From IMG/VR virus record IMGVR_UViG_3300021180_000041, positions 1 through 30,795 of that record: a DNA stretch of 30,795 nucleotides; one strand, 5' to 3'. Positions 9,076 to 20,052 of the stretch are shown in pieces. The notes beneath the pieces are model-generated. The model was not told where the DNA came from. It did no database searches and saw nothing but the letters and a program-made list of their open reading frames with translations. The position numbers and the translations under genes were made by a program. The stretch is from a virus. Position 1 is the first letter of the stretch. Each line of letters opens with the position of its first letter.

Positions 9076-9362
9076 ACCCCGTCGCCTCGCACTGTGCCGC
9101 TCCCAGGCCAGCCACCAGGCACTATGCGGCCCACCTTAACCCCGCGATGATCATTCCGTGAACCCCCGGTGTCTGAATTGTCAACAGACCGTGGCGGGCG
9201 GTGGCCCTGGTCACCGAATGGGGCCAGGAGGGCAGCGAGCTTACGGCGGGTCTCGGGAGACATGGGGCGTCGGGAGCGCTCCAGGGTGCGCCTGAGCCAG
9301 TCAGCCCTGGCCTGCTCCTGCCGCTGCCTGGACGTTTGTGTCCGGTCCTCTGGGCTGGTCAT
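9072..9362 (-). CDS. Small hypothetical protein between repressor and exonuclease
   Basis: 96 aa with ATG overlapping the repressor stop (ATGA). The N-terminal half is charged and helical (SRQRQEQARADWLRRTLERSRR), followed by MSPETRRKLAALLAPFG, which is a common actinobacterial small-protein pattern. The C-terminal 40 residues are low-complexity and may be marginal. No function recognised. Confidence 0.55.
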   Translation of the reverse strand: MTSPEDRTQTSRQRQEQARADWLRRTLERSRRPMSPETRRKLAALLAPFGDQGHRPPRSVDNSDTGGSRNDHRGVKVGRIVPGGWPGSGTVRGDGV

Positions 9363-9604
9363 TGCTGAGGCACCCCAGCCAGCAGCTCGCCCGGCTCGTG
9401 GCCGTACAACTGGGCCAGGCGGGTCAGGACTGCCAGGCTCGGGGCGCGGCCCTCGCCGCGCTCCAGGGCAGACAGCCAGGGAAACGAGATGCCGACTGCC
9501 ACGCAGACCTGCTCACGGGTGAGGTCAGCCTCCACCCGCCAGGCCAGCAGCTTGGCGTGGTCGTACAAGCGCCCGGATGGCTGGGGCGCGGTGGTCGCGG
9601 TCAA
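9359..9604 (-). CDS. XRE-family helix-turn-helix regulator
   Basis: 81 aa from TTG 9604, chosen because GGAGG (9611-9615) lies six bases upstream. An upstream start would extend into a region with paired operators and low-complexity sequence. The helix-turn-helix spans about 28-50: LTREQVCVAVGISFPWLSALERG, followed by PSLAVLTRLAQLYG. It is the first gene of the early operon. Two dyad sites overlap its ribosome site, suggesting autorepression. A role as repressor or early activator is inference; it is small for a main phage repressor. Confidence 0.75.
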   Translation of the reverse strand: MTATTAPQPSGRLYDHAKLLAWRVEADLTREQVCVAVGISFPWLSALERGEGRAPSLAVLTRLAQLYGHEPGELLAGVPQQ

Positions 9605-9611
9605 GGGGGGC

Positions 9612-9663
9612 CTCCAGTTGGCACGGGCCGGTGGGGGGGTGACCAGCACCGCGCCAACTGGAG
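9612..9663. promoter_or_regulatory. Paired inverted operators at the XRE gene
   Basis: CTCCAGTTGGC (9612-9622) and GCCAACTGGAG (9653-9663) form a perfect 11-bp inverted repeat separated by 30 bp, almost three helical turns. Each half contains CCAxxTGG, itself a small dyad. The left copy overlaps the ribosome site of the XRE gene. This fits two operators on the same DNA face bound by the adjacent regulator, possibly with looping. A long-loop hairpin is the alternative reading. Confidence 0.55.
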
Positions 9664-9823
9664 ACGAACAGGCAGCACAGCCAGCGCGGCTCCCCGGCAA
9701 TAATCGCTGCGCTACCGGGCGCGCTCCTGTGCATCAGGCCACTTATGTCATCGCGCCGCCAGCAGGGCGCTCCTCCGCCGTCAGGCTGTTTTTATCGTCA
9801 CGCCGCCTGTGCGCTCCTGTGCC

Positions 9824-9975: not shown

Positions 9976-11478
9976 CTACGCGGCCAGGGCCTCCTCGACC
10001 CAGCGAACCCGGATGGTCTCAGGGTCAAATGCTGAGCCCTTCCGCTCAGCCCTGAGGATGACCACCTGAGCCAGGAGGAGCTGGACCACAGCCCGCCGCC
10101 TGGCCATGCTCAGGCCCTCCCAGACAGTCCTGGCAGGCTGGCCCCTGAACTCCTCCAGGGGGTCAGGCTGGCTGCTGGTGGTGAGCTGGGTCTCGATCTG
10201 AGACAGCCTGGCAGCCTTGCGGTCAATCTCAGCCTGGGCCTGGCTGTCGCCCTCGAACACAGCCAGGAGGGCCTGGCGCTGGCGGCGCAGGGTGGCCCGC
10301 TCAGCCCTCAGGGCCTCACCATCGACCAGGAGGGCAGGGGGCGGCTTGAGGAGGTCGGCCGCGTCGGGCTCCTCCAGCCTGGCGATGATCAGGTCACTGA
10401 TCAGGTCGTCCACAGCCTTGGCCTGGCGGCGGACATGCCCACAGGTGGAGCCCACATAGGCAGGAGACCGGCCCTTGCCAGCCCCTCCCACCTTGAGCTG
10501 GCCCTGGCAGATTCCGCACTGGGCGAAGCAGGACACCAGCCACCTGGGCTCATTCCCGCCGTTGTGAGTCCTCCTGCTGGGGTCAGTCAGCAGGTCCCTG
10601 AGCCGGTCCTGGTCAGGCTGGCTGATGATGGCCTCCCAGGGGGCGTCCACCCGCTCCCCAGCCCTGACCTGCTGGCCCACCACAGCAGCCGTGAGGAGCA
10701 TGTCCCTGATGGTCCTGGTGGACCAGGGGCCACCTGTCACGGTGGCAACGCCGCGGGCGATGAGGCCCCGCTCCACAGCAGCCAGGCTGACCCCGTGGAG
10801 GAGGTCAAATGCTGCCTGCCTCAGCTCCAGGGCCTCATCCTCATCAATGACCAGGTTCCGCTGGTGCTGGGCTGTGTGCTCCTGAACCTGGTAGCCGAAC
10901 GGGCGGCGGCCCCCCTGGTAGGACCTGCCAGCCCAGCGGCGGCGGCCCATCTTGACCTTGGCCGCGATGCTGGCACTGTAGCGGCGGGCATCGGCTATCC
11001 GGTCCCTCAGGGCCTCCTGCTCAGCATCACTGCCGCCGTCGCGGAGTATCCACCTGGCTGCCCAGTTCTCATCTGGGGCCACCACGGAGGCCCCGGCCAC
11101 CCTCACGTTGTCGATCAGGTCCAGGCCGTCCCGCTCGTTCCTGGCCAGCCTGGAGTCATCACTGACCACCAGGACCTTGGCCCTGCCGGTGAGGAGGTAG
11201 TCCCTGATGACCTGCTGCCACACGGGCCGGTTGGTCCTGAACTCCACCAGCCCGTTGGGGGTGGTGACCCTGAGTGGGGTCTTATAGGCACTGGCCCCCT
11301 TGGGCTTGCCGTCCCCGTTCAGGTCGTTCTCGATGGCGACCCAGACCACCCGCAGGCCCAGGCTGGCGGCGAACTCCACCAGCTCAGCCTTGCGGGCCTC
11401 GAAGGTCTCATCGTCCTGGTCTCGGAAGTCTGACAGCCGCAGGTAGATCACTGCTGGGGTCAGGGTGCTGCTAGTCAT
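9976..11478 (-). CDS. int: Large serine integrase (site-specific recombinase)
   Basis: 500 aa. Joins attP to attB through a serine-DNA intermediate. The resolvase domain opens with AVIYLRLSDFRD, with catalytic S16, and contains SRLARN (109-114) with catalytic arginine. A recombinase domain follows at about 180-300 (RRPFGYQV, then the GPWSTRTIRDML linker helix). The zinc ribbon is at about 317-348 (C317, C321, C324, C346), and a long coiled coil runs about 380-450 (ALRAERATLRRQRQALLAVF). Length is normal for the class. It is divergent from the plus-strand operon, with an attP-like dyad about 75 bp upstream of its start. Confidence 0.93.
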   Translation of the reverse strand: MTSSTLTPAVIYLRLSDFRDQDDETFEARKAELVEFAASLGLRVVWVAIENDLNGDGKPKGASAYKTPLRVTTPNGLVEFRTNRPVWQQVIRDYLLTGRAKVLVVSDDSRLARNERDGLDLIDNVRVAGASVVAPDENWAARWILRDGGSDAEQEALRDRIADARRYSASIAAKVKMGRRRWAGRSYQGGRRPFGYQVQEHTAQHQRNLVIDEDEALELRQAAFDLLHGVSLAAVERGLIARGVATVTGGPWSTRTIRDMLLTAAVVGQQVRAGERVDAPWEAIISQPDQDRLRDLLTDPSRRTHNGGNEPRWLVSCFAQCGICQGQLKVGGAGKGRSPAYVGSTCGHVRRQAKAVDDLISDLIIARLEEPDAADLLKPPPALLVDGEALRAERATLRRQRQALLAVFEGDSQAQAEIDRKAARLSQIETQLTTSSQPDPLEEFRGQPARTVWEGLSMARRRAVVQLLLAQVVILRAERKGSAFDPETIRVRWVEEALAA

Positions 11479-11511: not shown

Positions 11512-11537
11512 TGTTAGCCCAGCTAGCTGGGCTAACA
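11512..11537. promoter_or_regulatory. 26-bp perfect palindrome upstream of the integrase
   Basis: Thirteen bases TGTTAGCCCAGCT (11512-11524) are followed immediately by their exact complement to 11537. The centre is CTAG with no loop, so a protein-binding dyad is likelier than a hairpin. It lies 34 bp upstream of the integrase start on the minus strand, where a repressor would block the integrase promoter. The partner protein is unknown; candidates are encoded at 9359 or 11966. Confidence 0.65.
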
Positions 11538-11551
11538 ACGCTCAGGGCTCA

Positions 11552-11603
11552 GTGTATTCCAACGCCCCGTATGGTCTTGACCACACGGGGTGCTGGGGTA
11601 CAC
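11552..11603. other. attP: Candidate attP of the serine integrase
   Basis: A 52-bp imperfect dyad centred on TT at 11577-11578. The inner arms are CCCCGT-A-TGGTC (11565-11576) and GACCA-C-ACGGGG (11579-11590), and outer arms GTGTA (11552-11556) and TACAC (11599-11603) mirror exactly. Twenty of 26 base pairs match. Large serine integrases use attP sites of about 50 bp with imperfect arms and a central dinucleotide, TT in phiC31, next to int. Location, size, symmetry and centre all fit. Function is inference. Confidence 0.65.
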
Positions 11604-11608
11604 AGACG

Positions 11609-11649
11609 TTGTGCTGTGCATTGCACAGGTTATAGGGTGTGCATTGCAC
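11609..11649 (+). promoter_or_regulatory. Promoter with twin operators for the plus-strand operon
   Basis: TTGTGC (11609-11614) and TATAGG (11631-11636), 16 bp apart, make a plausible sigma-70 promoter. Two dyads flank the -10: TGTGCA-T-TGCACA at 11615-11627, in the spacer, and TGTGCATTGCAC at 11638-11649, around the transcript start. Their starts are 23 bp apart, about two helical turns. A bound protein would block transcription. AGGAGGT (11668-11674) and the first ATG (11683) follow. Confidence 0.65.
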
Positions 11650-11682: not shown

Positions 11683-11973
11683 ATGACTCAGCTAGTACCG
11701 AATCGGACTGAGGTCCACCACGAACCCCTCCAGCCTCGGGAAGTGATCCGCTACTCAGTGATGGCGGACGGCGACCCCCACCCGGTAGAGACCTGGCCCA
11801 GGGACCAGGGGGGCCTGGGGGCCATCAATGCCACCACCCGCGCCTGTAACCTGTCGCTGCTCGGAGGCCCGCATGAGGTCTGGGTGGGGGACCGCCTCCT
11901 GGCCAGGTTCGTGAACGGTGCCCGCGAGGGCCGCACCAGGCCCCTCCGGGCACCAGTGACCGCCCATGACTAG
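11683..11973 (+). CDS. First gene of the plus-strand operon, unknown
   Basis: 96 aa from ATG 11683, eight bases after AGGAGGT; a further upstream GTG in this frame lies across the operators and is rejected. The protein is hydrophilic, with VIRYSVMADGDPHPVETWPRDQGGLGAINATTRACNLSLLGGPHEVWVGDRLLARFVNG. The C-terminal half looks like a small beta fold. No family is recognised. It overlaps the next gene by eight bases. Its control by the twin operators suggests a lysogeny or switch function, which is inference. Confidence 0.7.
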   Translation: MTQLVPNRTEVHHEPLQPREVIRYSVMADGDPHPVETWPRDQGGLGAINATTRACNLSLLGGPHEVWVGDRLLARFVNGAREGRTRPLRAPVTAHD

Positions 11974-12193
11974 TGCCACCACCACCACCCAGCCCCAGCG
12001 CGGCGGGCCTCAGCTCACCCTGCGGTTCCGTAAGGGCACAGACCTGCTGGCCTGGTATCAGCAGCTAGCCGACGACAACGGGGTCAGCCTGACTGCTGCC
12101 CTGCTGGTCGGGCTCGATTTCTACCGCGCCGCCCACGACAACGGCGGCCTCACCCTCAACACCGCCCATGATGGAAGGAACCATCTCGCATGA
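11966..12193 (+). CDS. Small ribbon-helix-helix-like protein
   Basis: 75 aa. After a Thr/Gln-rich N-terminus comes a strand LTLRFRKG and two helices, TDLLAWYQQLADDNG and SLTAALLVGLDFYRAAHDNGG, the order of a ribbon-helix-helix DNA-binding protein (Arc/MetJ/CopG). Arg residues in the strand would contact DNA. Such dimers bind short dyads, so it is a natural candidate to bind the twin operators upstream of its own operon. The family call is by pattern only. It overlaps both neighbours (8 and 4 bases). Confidence 0.55.
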   Translation: MTSATTTTQPQRGGPQLTLRFRKGTDLLAWYQQLADDNGVSLTAALLVGLDFYRAAHDNGGLTLNTAHDGRNHLA

Positions 12194-12693
12194 CCACCAC
12201 CGACCGCCACGGCCACACCACAGCAGGCCGCACCACCAGCGCGGGCCGCGCCGTAGACGCGGGCACGGTCCAGTCCCTCACCCTGGCCTATAAGCAGCTA
12301 GTGAGGGCTGGCAATGACAGCGTTCGGGCTGCCTGGAGGTTCGGGCAGACCATCGACAGCCACTCGGATGCCTACACCATGCGCCAGCTCGCGGAGTCGA
12401 TGGGCAGGAGCGTGGGCACCCTGAACCGCTACCACCGCCTGTTCGCGGCCTACCAGCGGCCTGAGCTGGCCGTGGAGGCATCCGAAATCCTTGAGACGTA
12501 CAACATCGACCTGGTGTGGGCGCTCGGTTCCCAGCTCAAGCCGGTGGAGCATGGCAGGCCCCTGGCTGGGCGGCGGTTCCGCTACAGGTGCCAGCACTGC
12601 TCCAGCCTGGAGGTCGGGCGCGAGGAGATTACCGACCCCGCCGAGCTGGCCGAGCTGGACCGCCAGGCCCACGCGGCGGCAGGGGCCAACTGA
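12190..12693 (+). CDS. Helix-turn-helix protein with a C-terminal Cys pair
   Basis: 167 aa. A central helical region (YKQLVRAGNDSVRAAWRFGQTIDSHSD) precedes a helix-turn-helix-like segment YTMRQLAESMGRSVGTLNRYHRLF at about 62-85. Another helical part (ELAVEASEILETYNIDLVWALG) follows, and then RYRCQHCSSLEVGREEI with a CxxC that could pair with metal or another chain. It may be a regulator or partition-like protein. Coupled by ATGA to the gene upstream and by TGATG to the gene downstream. Confidence 0.6.
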   Translation: MTTTDRHGHTTAGRTTSAGRAVDAGTVQSLTLAYKQLVRAGNDSVRAAWRFGQTIDSHSDAYTMRQLAESMGRSVGTLNRYHRLFAAYQRPELAVEASEILETYNIDLVWALGSQLKPVEHGRPLAGRRFRYRCQHCSSLEVGREEITDPAELAELDRQAHAAAGAN

Positions 12694-13283
12694 TGGGGCC
12701 AGGAGGCTGCCAGGAGCCAGGCCGGGAGCCTGGCTGGGATCATGGCCAGGAGGCCGCGCGGCTGGCCGGGCTGATCGACTCGGACGTTGCGGCCCTGGTC
12801 GAGTCAGGCCCCCTGCCCCGCCTGGAGGTCACGCTCACCTGCCCTGTGTGCCAGGCCCAGGTGTCTGGGCATGTCCCCCAGGCCCCTGGCAGGGGGCACC
12901 AGGAGGAGGCAGTGGCCGCCCTGCTGGAGGCTGAGGCCCTGGCCCAGGCTGCTGCCCTGGTGAGGGCTGACCAGGAGGGCATTACCCCAGGAGACCTCCT
13001 GGCCATAGCTGAGCGGGCGCTCAGGATGGCTGCTGGCCTCCGTGAGCACCTGGTGGCTGGCAGCCTGCTCGATGCCTGGGCCGCAGCGGACTGGCTGGGG
13101 GACCTGGCCCAGGAGGTCAAGGACAAATTGCCGGTCTCCAGCCAGGACATCCTGGCTGCGGTCGAGGGCCACCAGCTCCCCGAGTACCCGCGCCCGGCAC
13201 CGGAGGCATGGGAGGCAGCCCCCCAGATCATCGACCCCTGGACAGGGCCACCCCAGCCCAGGGAAGGGGGCGAGCAGTTCTGA
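12693..13283 (+). CDS. Hypothetical protein with CPVC motif
   Basis: 196 aa from ATG 12693, which overlaps the upstream stop by one base. N-terminal residues are Gly/Pro/Glu-rich, then LEVTLTCPVCQAQVSGHVP gives a CxxC and nearby His. The middle is strongly helical (QEEAVAALLEAEALAQAAALVRADQEG, DLLAIAERALRMAAGLREHLV). The tail is Pro-rich. No family is recognised. Codons are strongly biased to AGG and CTG. Part of the same operon. Confidence 0.65.
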   Translation: MGPGGCQEPGREPGWDHGQEAARLAGLIDSDVAALVESGPLPRLEVTLTCPVCQAQVSGHVPQAPGRGHQEEAVAALLEAEALAQAAALVRADQEGITPGDLLAIAERALRMAAGLREHLVAGSLLDAWAAADWLGDLAQEVKDKLPVSSQDILAAVEGHQLPEYPRPAPEAWEAAPQIIDPWTGPPQPREGGEQF

Positions 13284-13567
13284 TGCCGGGTCATTACCAC
13301 CCTGGGCGGGATGACACCAGTTTCGGGAGGCTGGCCCGTGAGCTGCACGCCGAGACGGCGGCCTACCTGGCAGCCTGCGCCCATGCCCCAGACCTGGACC
13401 AGTCGGCGGGCCTCAACGAGCTGCTGACCGGCAGGTGGGCTGTCTGGTTCGAGGCCACCACAGGCAGCCCAACCGTGTGGAAGGCCAGGCGCACCAGCGG
13501 CGGGCCGATCGTGACTGCCAGCAGCTCCACCGCGCTGCTGGCCCTGATCGAGGAGGCAGACACCTGA
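13283..13567 (+). CDS. Hypothetical protein
   Basis: 94 aa, start overlapping the previous stop (TGATG). Helical N-terminus (SFGRLARELHAETAAYLAACAHA), then LLTGRWAVWFEATTGSPTVWKARRTSGGPIVTASSSTALLALIEEAD, which suggests a small mixed alpha-beta fold. No cysteine pairs, signal or membrane segment. Function unknown. Coding is supported by exact coupling on both sides. Confidence 0.65.
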   Translation: MPGHYHPGRDDTSFGRLARELHAETAAYLAACAHAPDLDQSAGLNELLTGRWAVWFEATTGSPTVWKARRTSGGPIVTASSSTALLALIEEADT

Positions 13568-13842
13568 TGGGCGGTAAGGCAGGCTCAGTGAACCCGCCAG
13601 GCCGCTATGTGGTGGAGGACCACTCATCCATCAAGGGCCTGCTGAGTGTCTACTGGCACCCAGAGGGCCACCTGCGCCATGACCCGAGGCCCATCGTGAA
13701 CCTGGGGCCTGGGGCTGTGCCCCTGCTGGCTGAGGCCCTGGCTGAGTGGGAGCTGGAGCACAGGGTCAGCCCAGCCCCCAGGCAGGCCCCCAGCAGCTCC
13801 AGGGGCAGGCTCAGGGCTGTCAACGATGATGGGGTGATCTGA
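13567..13842 (+). CDS. Hypothetical protein
   Basis: 91 aa, coupled by TGATG. A strand-like RYVVEDHSSIKGLLSVYWHPEGHLRHDPRPIVNLGPGAVPLLAEALAEWELEH is followed by a Pro/Ser/Arg tail. No motif recognised. The upstream and downstream junctions, each a one-base overlap, show that it is part of a co-translated block. Confidence 0.65.
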   Translation: MGGKAGSVNPPGRYVVEDHSSIKGLLSVYWHPEGHLRHDPRPIVNLGPGAVPLLAEALAEWELEHRVSPAPRQAPSSSRGRLRAVNDDGVI

Positions 13843-14030
13843 TGCCTGAGCAGGTGATCAGGCCCAGGCTGAGCCTGGAGGACACCAGGCTCCTGATCGA
13901 GGCCCTGGACTACATCCCGACCAAGACCGTGGAGGAGGTCGAGGCCGTCAGTGACCTGGGGGCCAGGCTCCAGACCTCAGCCCAGAACGGGCCGTTTCGG
14001 GCTGAGTGGTTCCGGCAGATGAACGGATAG
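13842..14030 (+). CDS. Small hypothetical protein, last gene of the operon
   Basis: 62 aa, start overlapping the previous stop. Helical and acidic (LSLEDTRLLIEALDYIPTKTVEEVEAVSDLGARLQTSAQ), ending in FRAEWFRQMNG. Four of six arginine codons are AGG, unusual for a GC-rich actinobacterial gene. No family recognised. Followed within 30 bp by strong inverted repeats, so it closes the operon. Confidence 0.65.
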   Translation: MPEQVIRPRLSLEDTRLLIEALDYIPTKTVEEVEAVSDLGARLQTSAQNGPFRAEWFRQMNG

Positions 14031-14706: not shown

Positions 14707-14949
14707 TCACGGCGGCGTGTCAGGATTCTTACCTGTGCCCTGCCCTGGGCACATTCGCAGCGCCGCGTAGGCGAGGAGCTGGGAGAGCACCGCCACGGCG
14801 GCGGACCCGGCTAGGTCCTGCCAGAACTCCAGGGTCCGCAGCCTGGTGAGGTAGTCACCTGCTGCTGTGGTCACCAGCAGCGAGGCCACGAACACCTGGA
14901 GCCCGTGCCAGGCCAGGTCAGCTAGCTGCTTGCGGTGGCGCTGGTCCAT
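14707..14949 (-). CDS. Holin
   Basis: 80 aa. A basic start (MDQRHRKQ) is followed by two hydrophobic helices, HGLQVFVASLLVTTAAGDYL and LAGSAAVAVLSQLLAYAALRM, separated by a short loop with RTLEFWQDL, and then a polar tail. Size, two-helix plan and the FWxDLAxxAA segment match actinophage holins of the r1t-like type. It opens the membrane for the endolysin encoded upstream. The ATG overlaps the preceding fibre stop by one base. Confidence 0.75.
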   Translation of the reverse strand: MDQRHRKQLADLAWHGLQVFVASLLVTTAAGDYLTRLRTLEFWQDLAGSAAVAVLSQLLAYAALRMCPGQGTGKNPDTPP

Positions 14950-16478
14950 CAGCCAGGCATCGGGAAGTTGGCCGGGGGTGTCCAGTCAGCCCTGGCAGCC
15001 ACCAGCCGCCCGCCCTGGTCCGAGCTGGGCACACCAGGCGGGAGGCTGACCGGCACGAACCGGATCGAGTCAAGGAACAGGACTTGCAACGAGGTCGCCC
15101 CTGGGAAGTCGGACGGGGCTGAGTACACCTGGAGCTGGTAGCCCTGAACCATCATCACCTGGGCTATCACCCGCCCGCCGCCACCGGCAACCAGGATCGC
15201 GGGGCAGGGCCAAATGGTGGTCGGGGCGTAGAACCCGATCGGGATAGCCCCGATGACCGTGCCTGCGGCTGGCAGCCCGCCCAGGTTCCACTGGATATAG
15301 CCGTTGATCCAGCAGACCCCCCGGTGGTAGTAGAACCGCAGCGGGGGCTCAGGGGGGCCTGCCACGTTGCCGTCTGTCCAGCCAGGGCCGAGTGACAGCG
15401 ACCAGTAGCGGGGGGCTATCTCCAGCTCAGCCCTGGTGACCTGCCCGTCTTGGCCCGGTATGCCCTGGGGGCCTTGGCTGCCCTGCGGGCCTTGGGGTCC
15501 TGGCACGCCCTGGTCACCCTGCTGGCCCTGCGGCCCTGGGAATCCCAGCGTCCCGCGCGGTCCTTCCGGCCCGGCTGGTCCTGCTGCCCCCTCGGGGCCT
15601 GCCTGCCCGTCCACACCTGGCACGCCCTGGGGGCCTGGTGCCCCCTGCGGACCCTGCGGCCCCTGGATACTCCCGATGTCCACCCAGCCCAGCGGGTTAT
15701 TGACCTGCGACACGAAGCCGTACAGGGTGCCATCGACAGGGTGGCCCTCGCGGTGGAACAGGAGCGCATCCCCGATCCGGCACTGATAGGCGGGCTGCCC
15801 TGGCCGGTCCCAGTCGGCGGGCAGGTAGCCAGTCGGGGGCAGGTCCGTGGGGAGCTTGGACACCCCGAACTGGCCCACGATGATGGCTGCCGCGCCGTCC
15901 TGCCCAGGAGGCCCCTGGACCCCCGTCTGTCCGGTGAGGCCCTGGGCACCCTGGGGGCCTGCTGGCCCCATCTCGCCTCGGGCACCCTGCCCGCCTGGGA
16001 TGCCCTCCTGGCCCTGGGGTCCTGGGAACCCCATTTCGCCTCGGGCACCCTGGGGGCCTGCTGGCCCCTGGGCTCCTGGCCCTCCTGGTGGCCCCTGCGC
16101 CCCTGGAGGCCCTGGGGGGGCCTGGAGGATGCCGGGGGTTATCCAGGGCTGGCCTGCTGGCAGGCCATCACCCACGAACGTCCACAGCGTGCCGTCAGGC
16201 TCGTAGATCAGGGACCAGCCCAGCTCCACCTGGGTATCCCGCACCGGGCGGCCCAGACCGTCCCAGTCAGCAGGCAGGAACCCATCCGGGGGCAGCTCGT
16301 TGGGCTGGCGCTGAGCCCCGAAGGTCCCCACGATGATGGTTGCCTGGCCTCCTGGTCCCGGTGGCCCGTCAGGACCCTGGGGACCAGACGGGCCTGGTGG
16401 CCCCTCAGGGCCAGGCATCCCCGCCGACACGTCGATGGCCCCAGGCTGGCGGGGGACCGTCACGTCTATTTCGCTCAT
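14949..16478 (-). CDS. Collagen-like tail fibre / minor tail protein
   Basis: 509 aa from ATG 16478, which overlaps the upstream stop (ATGA). Three G-x-y collagen-like tracts (about 22-44, 121-196 and 272-346) alternate with two copies of a roughly 75-residue domain (46-119 and 197-271) beginning ATIIVG or AAIIVG and containing [12 protein letters not shown]. The C-terminal about 160 residues are a beta-rich globular domain, probably receptor-binding. Trimeric collagen-like rods are known in phage tail fibres. A related fibre is encoded at 18460-20052. It lies just before the holin. Confidence 0.85.
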
Positions 16479-16843
16479 CTGGTCACGTCCGGTTCCACCG
16501 TCACAGGCCCCTTGATGATGGTCTGGACCCTGCTCACGGGCCTGGTGAGCTGGAGGTCCCACCGGCCGGACGGGCAGCCCTGAGACTGCCCGGCCGACAG
16601 GTGAACGAATATCCAGTTCGGCGGGGTGATCTGACAGACCAGCTCCACGGCCACCCGGTCATCAGGGCTGCGGCGTATCTGTGCCCTGGCTGACTGGACC
16701 TGGCTCAGGTCGTAGGGCTGGGTCCTCTCGTCGTCCTCCCACAGCCTGAACCCCCAGGAGCGGGAGTCGCCCCGGTAGACATACAACGGGACCTCGAACG
16801 GAGCCCCGGTGTCTGCCTCGGCCTCAGCCAGCACGGTGGTCAT
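16475..16843 (-). CDS. Baseplate-like protein (BppU N-terminal-like)
   Basis: 122 aa. The pattern PLYVYRGDSRSWGFRLWEDDERTQPYDLSQVQSARAQIRRSPDD, then VAVELVCQITPPNWIFVHLSAG, and a last strand block [30 protein letters not shown], matches the first domain of phage upper baseplate proteins: a RGD-like turn, a PYDLS strand and an AQIRR strand. Here it stands alone and is co-translated with the collagen-like fibre, which it may anchor to the tail tip. Confidence 0.65.
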   Translation of the reverse strand: MTTVLAEAEADTGAPFEVPLYVYRGDSRSWGFRLWEDDERTQPYDLSQVQSARAQIRRSPDDRVAVELVCQITPPNWIFVHLSAGQSQGCPSGRWDLQLTRPVSRVQTIIKGPVTVEPDVTR

Positions 16844-18459: not shown

Positions 18460-20052
18460 TCAGATCGCGGCTGGCCTCCTGGTCAGCACGTCATAGGCGC
18501 GGCTCCCGGCCGCTGGGGTGGCGATGTAGCGGGACAGCCTGGAGCCCTGGAAGGTCACCAGCGCGGAGTTGTCGGTCTGACCTGCCCACCGCGCCGTCAG
18601 GCCCAGGGTGAGGTCATTACCGGCTATGAGCGTTTCGGGCTCCACGCTGCTGACCGCACCGGCCGCCATGTTCCCGCCTGTCCAGGCTGAGTGAGTGGGC
18701 CTGGGTGACATCAGGGCCTCGGTCCAGACCATCACCGAGGTTGGCGTGTAGACCTGGACGAACTGGCGCAGCACCACCCCGAACGGCACGTTGGCTGTGC
18801 CCGTCGCGGCATTGGTCAGCCGCAGGTCTATGTAGCGGAGCGACATCGAGGCATTGAACCGCTGGCCGACCACCAGGAGCCGCTGGTCATTGGTCGGCCC
18901 CCAGCCCCCGAATCCAGCGGTGTGGACCTCGAACCAGCTACCGGGGATGAGCTGGGCGGCAGGGATGACCCAGGCGCGGGTGACCATAGTCGCCGCGCCT
19001 TGGTTGCCAGCCAGCGGGAACGCCTGGTTATCGGACAGGAACGTGGCATTGACCGGGCCTGCTGGCCCCTCGGGGCCTTGCGGACCCTGGGGGCCTTGGA
19101 TGCCTGCCGGGCCTGCCTCACCAGGAGGCCCCTGGACGACGGCAGGGCTGAACCACTCGCCCTGAGGCCAGGATGGACCCATGTAGACCCACAGCCGCCC
19201 ATCCGGCTCGTACACGAGCGCCCAGCCCTGCTCTACCGTCACGTCCTGGGCCGGTCGGCCTGGGCCGTCCCAGTCGGTTGGAATGAGCCCGTCCGGGGGC
19301 AGGTCCCCAGGCTGGCGCTGCTGCCCGAACGACCCCACGATGATGGTTGCCGCGCCTGCTGGCCCCTCCTCACCGCGTGGACCGGCGTCACCCTGCGGCC
19401 CGGCTGGGCCTGATGGCCCCTGGTCCCCGCGCTCGCCAGTGGGGCCAGCAGGCCCCTGCTCGCCGTAGCCTGGCGGGCCTACGGGACCTGCTGGCCCCTC
19501 CTGGCCAGGTGGCCCTGGGTCGCCCTGGGGTCCGGGTGGGCCTCCAGGGTCACCAGCAGGCCCCTGGGGGCCAGGCAGACCTTGAGGCCCTGGAGGACCT
19601 GGCGGGCCAGGCTCACCGGGCGGGAAGTCCTGAGCCCTGGGCACGAACGTCATGTCTGCGGCCGAGGCCGCGCCTGCCGGGACCTCCACCGTGGCCAGGA
19701 CCACCCCGACCTGCTGGCTGCCCTCGGGCTGCACGATCAGCACGTACTCAGCCGCCTCGGGGTCAGTGACCAGCGCCCACAGCTCGTCCGTGCGGGCGTC
19801 GTCCTCCTCGCCCTCACGGACCACCACCCCCAGCTCCACCGGGGAGGCCAGGACTGCCAGGGTGCCGTCCCCGCAGTCAGCGATGGCCAGCCAGCCAGGG
19901 TCCACGGTCGCGGTGAGCCCTGCCCCTGGGGTCACCACGACGGGGGTCACCACCCCGTGAGCGCGGCCAGCCAGGGCGGTGATGACCTGCCTGTCATCCC
20001 AGGCCGCATACCTGCCTGACTGGCCCCAGCGGAGCAGCGTTGGCGAGGTCAT
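18460..20052 (-). CDS. Collagen-like tail fibre with tail-attachment domain
   Basis: 530 aa. Residues 1-140 are a globular domain homologous to the start of the protein encoded just upstream (shared AxDDRxVITAxxG, GAGLxxxxxxGW and CDD/CGD patches). A G-x-y tract (about 146-234) follows, then one ATIIVG module (235-306) with [17 protein letters not shown], a short second collagen tract (308-334), and a C-terminal beta-rich domain of about 190 residues, probably receptor-binding. The start lies two bases after the upstream stop with GGAG before it. Confidence 0.85.

Follow-up and report, generated by a model that had tools for sequence, protein, structure and literature searches.

The 52-bp imperfect inverted repeat located immediately 5' of a large serine integrase gene in a soil phage genome is very probably the phage attachment site (attP) of that integrase, with crossover at its central TT. 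The whole stretch of DNA analyzed here (30,795 bp, hereafter the window) is a 30.8-kb IMG/VR contig with a GC content of approximately 70% that carries capsid, tail, endolysin, and recombination genes, including two collagen-like tail fibre genes with repeats in common (14949-16562 and 18460-20052). The features discussed below are as follows.

9976..11478, minus strand: large serine integrase (int), 500 aa, with Y-x-R-x-S16 catalytic motif, recombinase domain, and Cys pair C321/C324
11552..11603, no strand: putative attP, imperfect inverted repeat (from sequence, chance test, and invariance relative to the 82% identical relative)
11552..11576, no strand: int-proximal half-site of the putative attP, GTGTA...GGTC (from sequence)
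11577..11578, no strand: predicted crossover dinucleotide, TT as written and AA in the int direction (from the dyad centre and relatives)
11579..11603, no strand: int-distal half-site of the putative attP, GACC...TACAC (from sequence)
11683..14030, plus strand: small early genes without assigned function, forming a divergent operon beyond the putative attP as seen from int

The inverted repeat and its surroundings

The dyad has the form GTGTATTCCAACGCCCCGTATGGTC-TT-GACCACACGGGGTGCTGGGGTACAC (25 + 2 + 25), in which 20 of the 25 arm pairs match. The first-pass annotation had described arms mirrored around TT and counted 20/26 pairs including the T:T centre; all the arms it named do pair, namely the outer GTGTA/TACAC and the inner CCCCGT/ACGGGG and TGGTC/GACCA. 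Its placement of the dyad near a serine integrase is likewise correct, because the ORF start is 73 bp away and both Pfam (Resolvase and Recombinase) and PHROG (PHROG 95, "integrase") assign the product to the large serine recombinases. Identity to annotated phage integrases is at most approximately 30%, over approximately 72% of the length.

The dyad is the top-scoring centre across the window. Among 300 dinucleotide-shuffled versions of the whole window, 3 contain a centre scoring 20, and a 19-pair dyad is present at 2377, as would be expected if such symmetry could arise by chance. However, shuffling only the intergenic stretch gave this score once in 20,000 trials, a local probability of approximately 5e-5 beside the integrase, and the dyad is fully conserved in a related phage. 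A fortuitous origin is therefore extremely unlikely.

Close integrases were present in two other IMG/VR contigs, L004, which is a near-identical phage, and L003, whose integrase is 82% identical. None of the 52 dyad positions differs in L003, versus 18 of 152 positions in the rest of the intergenic region (one-sided Fisher p=0.004), and the int-side edge of the dyad coincides with the end of the invariant block in the alignment. In L003, approximately 276 extra bp (L003:5737-6012) separate attP from int; they include the leader CAGGGAAGGAACCACCCCC in a second copy as well as a small ORF. An exact half-site scan of IMG/VR also returned L007 and L008, which were rejected as chance matches inside coding sequence.

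A perfect 26-bp palindrome (TGTTAGCCCAGCT/AGCTGGGCTAACA, 11512-11537) lies between the putative attP and int and folds into a strong RNA hairpin (z -2.9) in the leader of int. One of its arms is altered in L003, and also in the otherwise near-identical L004; a scan of the palindrome against IMG/VR gave no match. The 52-bp dyad, as an inverted repeat upstream of int with arms only 2 nt apart, might itself be taken for an RNA hairpin, a terminator, or a leader structure of the int transcript. However, it has no T-run and no terminator-like match, its unpaired positions are kept in L003 as well as its paired ones, and the perfect palindrome is a better candidate for such a structure, which leaves this possibility practically negligible.

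On the operon side, TGTGCATTGCAC occurs in two copies 23 bp apart (11615-11626 and 11638-11649), each near-palindromic; they flank TTATAG and are largely retained in L003. These operator-like repeats are likely control elements of the divergent operon, the first three genes of which had no above-threshold Pfam or PHROG match. Such regulatory-looking neighbours (the dyad at 11512-11537 and the direct repeat), together with the position of the 52-bp dyad in a divergent intergenic region and a Cro/C1-type HTH gene directly downstream of int (9359-9700), are what would be expected if the dyad were not an attachment site but an operator through which a repressor or activator controls int and/or the divergent operon. 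We consider this very unlikely, since 52 bp with 25-bp arms far exceeds a typical operator and, in relatives, the corresponding position 5' of int is where the prophage junction actually lies.

We propose an integration pathway in which the dyad acts as attP. Integrase dimers would bind attP and the host attB, both DNAs would be cut with a 2-bp TT overhang at 11577-11578, and rotation and rejoining would follow. In the resulting prophage, int would be terminal with its 5' end towards attL, and the divergent operon would border attR at the opposite end. Because the likely control elements of the operon (11615-11649) are on its own side of the crossover, they would remain with it after integration. 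The first-pass annotation's suggestion that integration could alter control of this operon found no support here. An int promoter reading across the dyad, if any, would be severed; none was detected, and a promoter and terminator scan of the intergenic region gave no match.

Attachment sites of related phages and lysogens

The relatives used for attP testing have integrases only 29-38% identical to the window integrase. A GTDB genome scan yielded 40 actinobacterial loci, and further free phages were recovered with a profile built from both close and distant integrases; an alignment of eight integrases contained no stretch conserved enough for use as a scan query. Dyads were located directly 5' of int in the free phages L019 (19 pairs), L027 (18), L028 (20), L030 (17), and L033 (19), and Arthrobacter phage BaileyBlu (L014) has a 17-pair dyad just 5' of int. 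The centre is AA or TT in several of these dyads, versus CT in L019, the nearest free phage after L003. Most chromosomal copies score 12-16 at the equivalent place, which is the chance level; a dyad in free phages and a chance-level score in chromosomes are expected if integration splits attP. Exceptions were found on both sides, namely the free-phage contigs L020-L023 without a clear dyad and the chromosomal loci L037 and L070 with 17-18 pairs. L035 was scored around the int start, though its junction is approximately 330 bp further 5'.

Junctions at both ends were located in three lysogens, L038 (Amycolatopsis), L035 (Kutzneria), and L040 (Acrocarpospora). The prophage junction in these related lysogens is 5' of int, and the rebuilt attP sites are all 46 bp (22+2+22) with a TT or AA centre. 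In Amycolatopsis, a sibling genome has the intact gene, and synteny ends approximately 50 bp 5' of the start of the int alignment. The remaining half of the AfsR-like gene is on contig C175 beside phage-like DNA; since the two ends are on separate contigs, their pairing is a deduction. Both ends share the core CTTGCCGA, and rejoining them gives the attP GTGTGGTTTTCCGGGTATGGGC-TT-GCCGAAAACTTGTTTATGACAC. In Acrocarpospora, both ends are on one contig (G006:C17, about 59,560-68,830), and an ABC-transporter ATPase is broken between GFLGPNGAGK and TTTIR. The rejoined attP, GCGTCACAATCCATCGTTCGGC-TT-GCCCAACGCTGGAATTAGACGC, has 17/22 pairs (counted by hand). Because attL and attR are only approximately 9.3 kb apart, this is an integrated element of small size or what remains of a prophage, not a full phage. 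In Kutzneria, siblings have an empty intergenic site, the element is approximately 60 kb, and the rejoined attP has an AA centre. On the host side, the sequence is a REP-like repeat with more than 60 matches in the Kutzneria genome (L035:7526-7572 and genome-wide), and the junctions of the element are in or beside this repeat. The crossover of L035 is the least certain of the three because its ends have only a short AAGG core in common.

The above-chance symmetry, the invariance relative to L003, the confirmed class of the integrase, and the junctions and rebuilt dyads of relatives together favour the attP assignment, which is the best-supported reading of the first-pass annotation's site. From these relatives, 29-38% identical and with attP sites of 46 rather than 52 bp, we infer that the window phage itself would use the dyad and its TT core. 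The genome search for its own attL and attR that had been suggested came back empty: the 25-bp half-site pattern had 0 matches in GTDB genomes, and scans of IMG/VR and GTDB genomes returned no lysogen, attL, or attR of the window phage or L003.

Walker A-coding DNA as integration target of related integrases

In 11 lysogens, the core TT/AA at the attL site falls exactly on the Lys codon of GK[ST], the Walker A motif, and each phage half is exactly 22 nt long with a GACAC-like end. The target genes are of three families, which were confirmed by Pfam/NCBIfam profiles.

AfsR-type NB-ARC: L036, L038, L103
ABC ATPase: L039, L040, L044, L102, L107
TadA-family ATPase: L100, L101, L111

The profile break position is 191 in the TadA copies and 24 in the ABC copies; the Lys codon was the cutting point chosen for the fragments, so these values only show the place of Walker A in the profiles. 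The independent evidence for insertion at Walker A is that host sequence gives way to phage sequence directly after the Lys codon. Most insertions are antisense to the target gene, while L101 and L111 are sense; L100 and L101, whose integrases are closely related, each interrupt a TadA-type ATPase gene at the same Lys codon, one in each orientation. L037 (TadA gene) was left out of the 11 because, though its break is near Walker A, its phage half departs from the 22-nt rule, and L105, at a contig edge, was set aside. The Mg-chelatase lysogens (L110, L112, and L115) and the comEA lysogens sit at other motifs and were kept apart from this set. More distant integrases target comEA, Mg-chelatase, or other genes, and a separate subclade (L026, L053, L055, L056, L066, L067, and L072) has one conserved site near the comEA 3' end. 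Walker A targeting is not universal, since the neighbour L035 uses a REP-like repeat.

In the phylogenetic tree, the window integrase, L003, and L019 are inside a 20-row clade that holds all the Walker A cases, with moderate support (91/87), and the window group has a long branch, with the AfsR-targeting group as its sister (84/78). The window core GGTCAAGACC (GGTC-AA-GACC towards int) is one base from the P-loop sequence GGGCAAGACC. This nesting and the one-base difference make it plausible that the window phage uses, as its attB, the stretch of a P-loop NTPase gene that codes for Walker A, with crossover at the AA of the Lys codon AAG, as in the 11 related lysogens. We put this forward tentatively, as a possibility a little short of even, because the window dyad is 52 rather than 46 bp, L019 has CT at its centre, and L035 targets a REP-like repeat; the 25-nt halves of the window dyad also depart from the 22-nt, GACAC-ended halves typical of the clade. 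A TGGAAT stretch common to the half-sites of the window, L040, and L103 was disregarded, being out of register with the core.

Significance and comparison with known systems

The window offers a ready-made int/attP pair with a predicted core, from a lineage far from characterized integrases. Its clade points to an ability of serine integrases to follow a functional protein motif nearly invariant at the codon level, which would allow one enzyme lineage to find targets in unrelated genes and species. If this is true, a suitable DNA context would be all that a P-loop ATPase gene needs to serve as a target, and integration would split the ATPase exactly at the ATP-binding lysine, as seen in the 11 lysogens in three ATPase families and as predicted for the window phage. 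These data bear on the evolution of integrase specificity and on the choice of integrases with predictable genomic targets. The Walker A target of the clade appears to be undescribed in the open-licence literature searched, where we found nothing relevant on a serine integrase with a Walker A, P-loop, or ATP-binding motif as its target.

Characterized phage serine integrases with attP sites of this type include those of phiC31 and Bxb1. Serine-integrase attP sites are described as 45-50 bp with inverted repeats, adjoining int (PMC5311408), and with 25-bp half-sites (PMC3783163). The size, symmetry, and location of the dyad agree with such sites, as the first-pass annotation had proposed: like the attP of A118/LI Int and phiJoe, it is a pseudo-palindrome of approximately 45-52 bp with 25-bp half-sites and a 2-bp centre beside the int 5' end (PMC3783163, PMC5311408). 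This likeness implies no sequence identity, in keeping with the distance of the integrase from annotated ones. The rebuilt attP sites of L035, L038, and L040 share with it the position 5' of int, a TT/AA centre, and outer GTGT/ACAC-type arms, but are shorter (46 bp with 22-nt halves).

The LSR targets given in the main text of Durrant et al. 2022 include Mg-chelatase/ATP-dependent protease, prolyl isomerase, and competence genes, along with a multi-targeting DUF4368 clade (PMC10083194). That main text makes no mention of P-loop, ABC transporter, or ATP-binding targets. As with the LSRs described there, conserved protein-coding DNA serves as attB in the related lysogens, and distant relatives in our set hit comEA and Mg-chelatase. 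Unlike the targets in that account, those of the present clade share one codon-level motif common to unrelated ATPase families.
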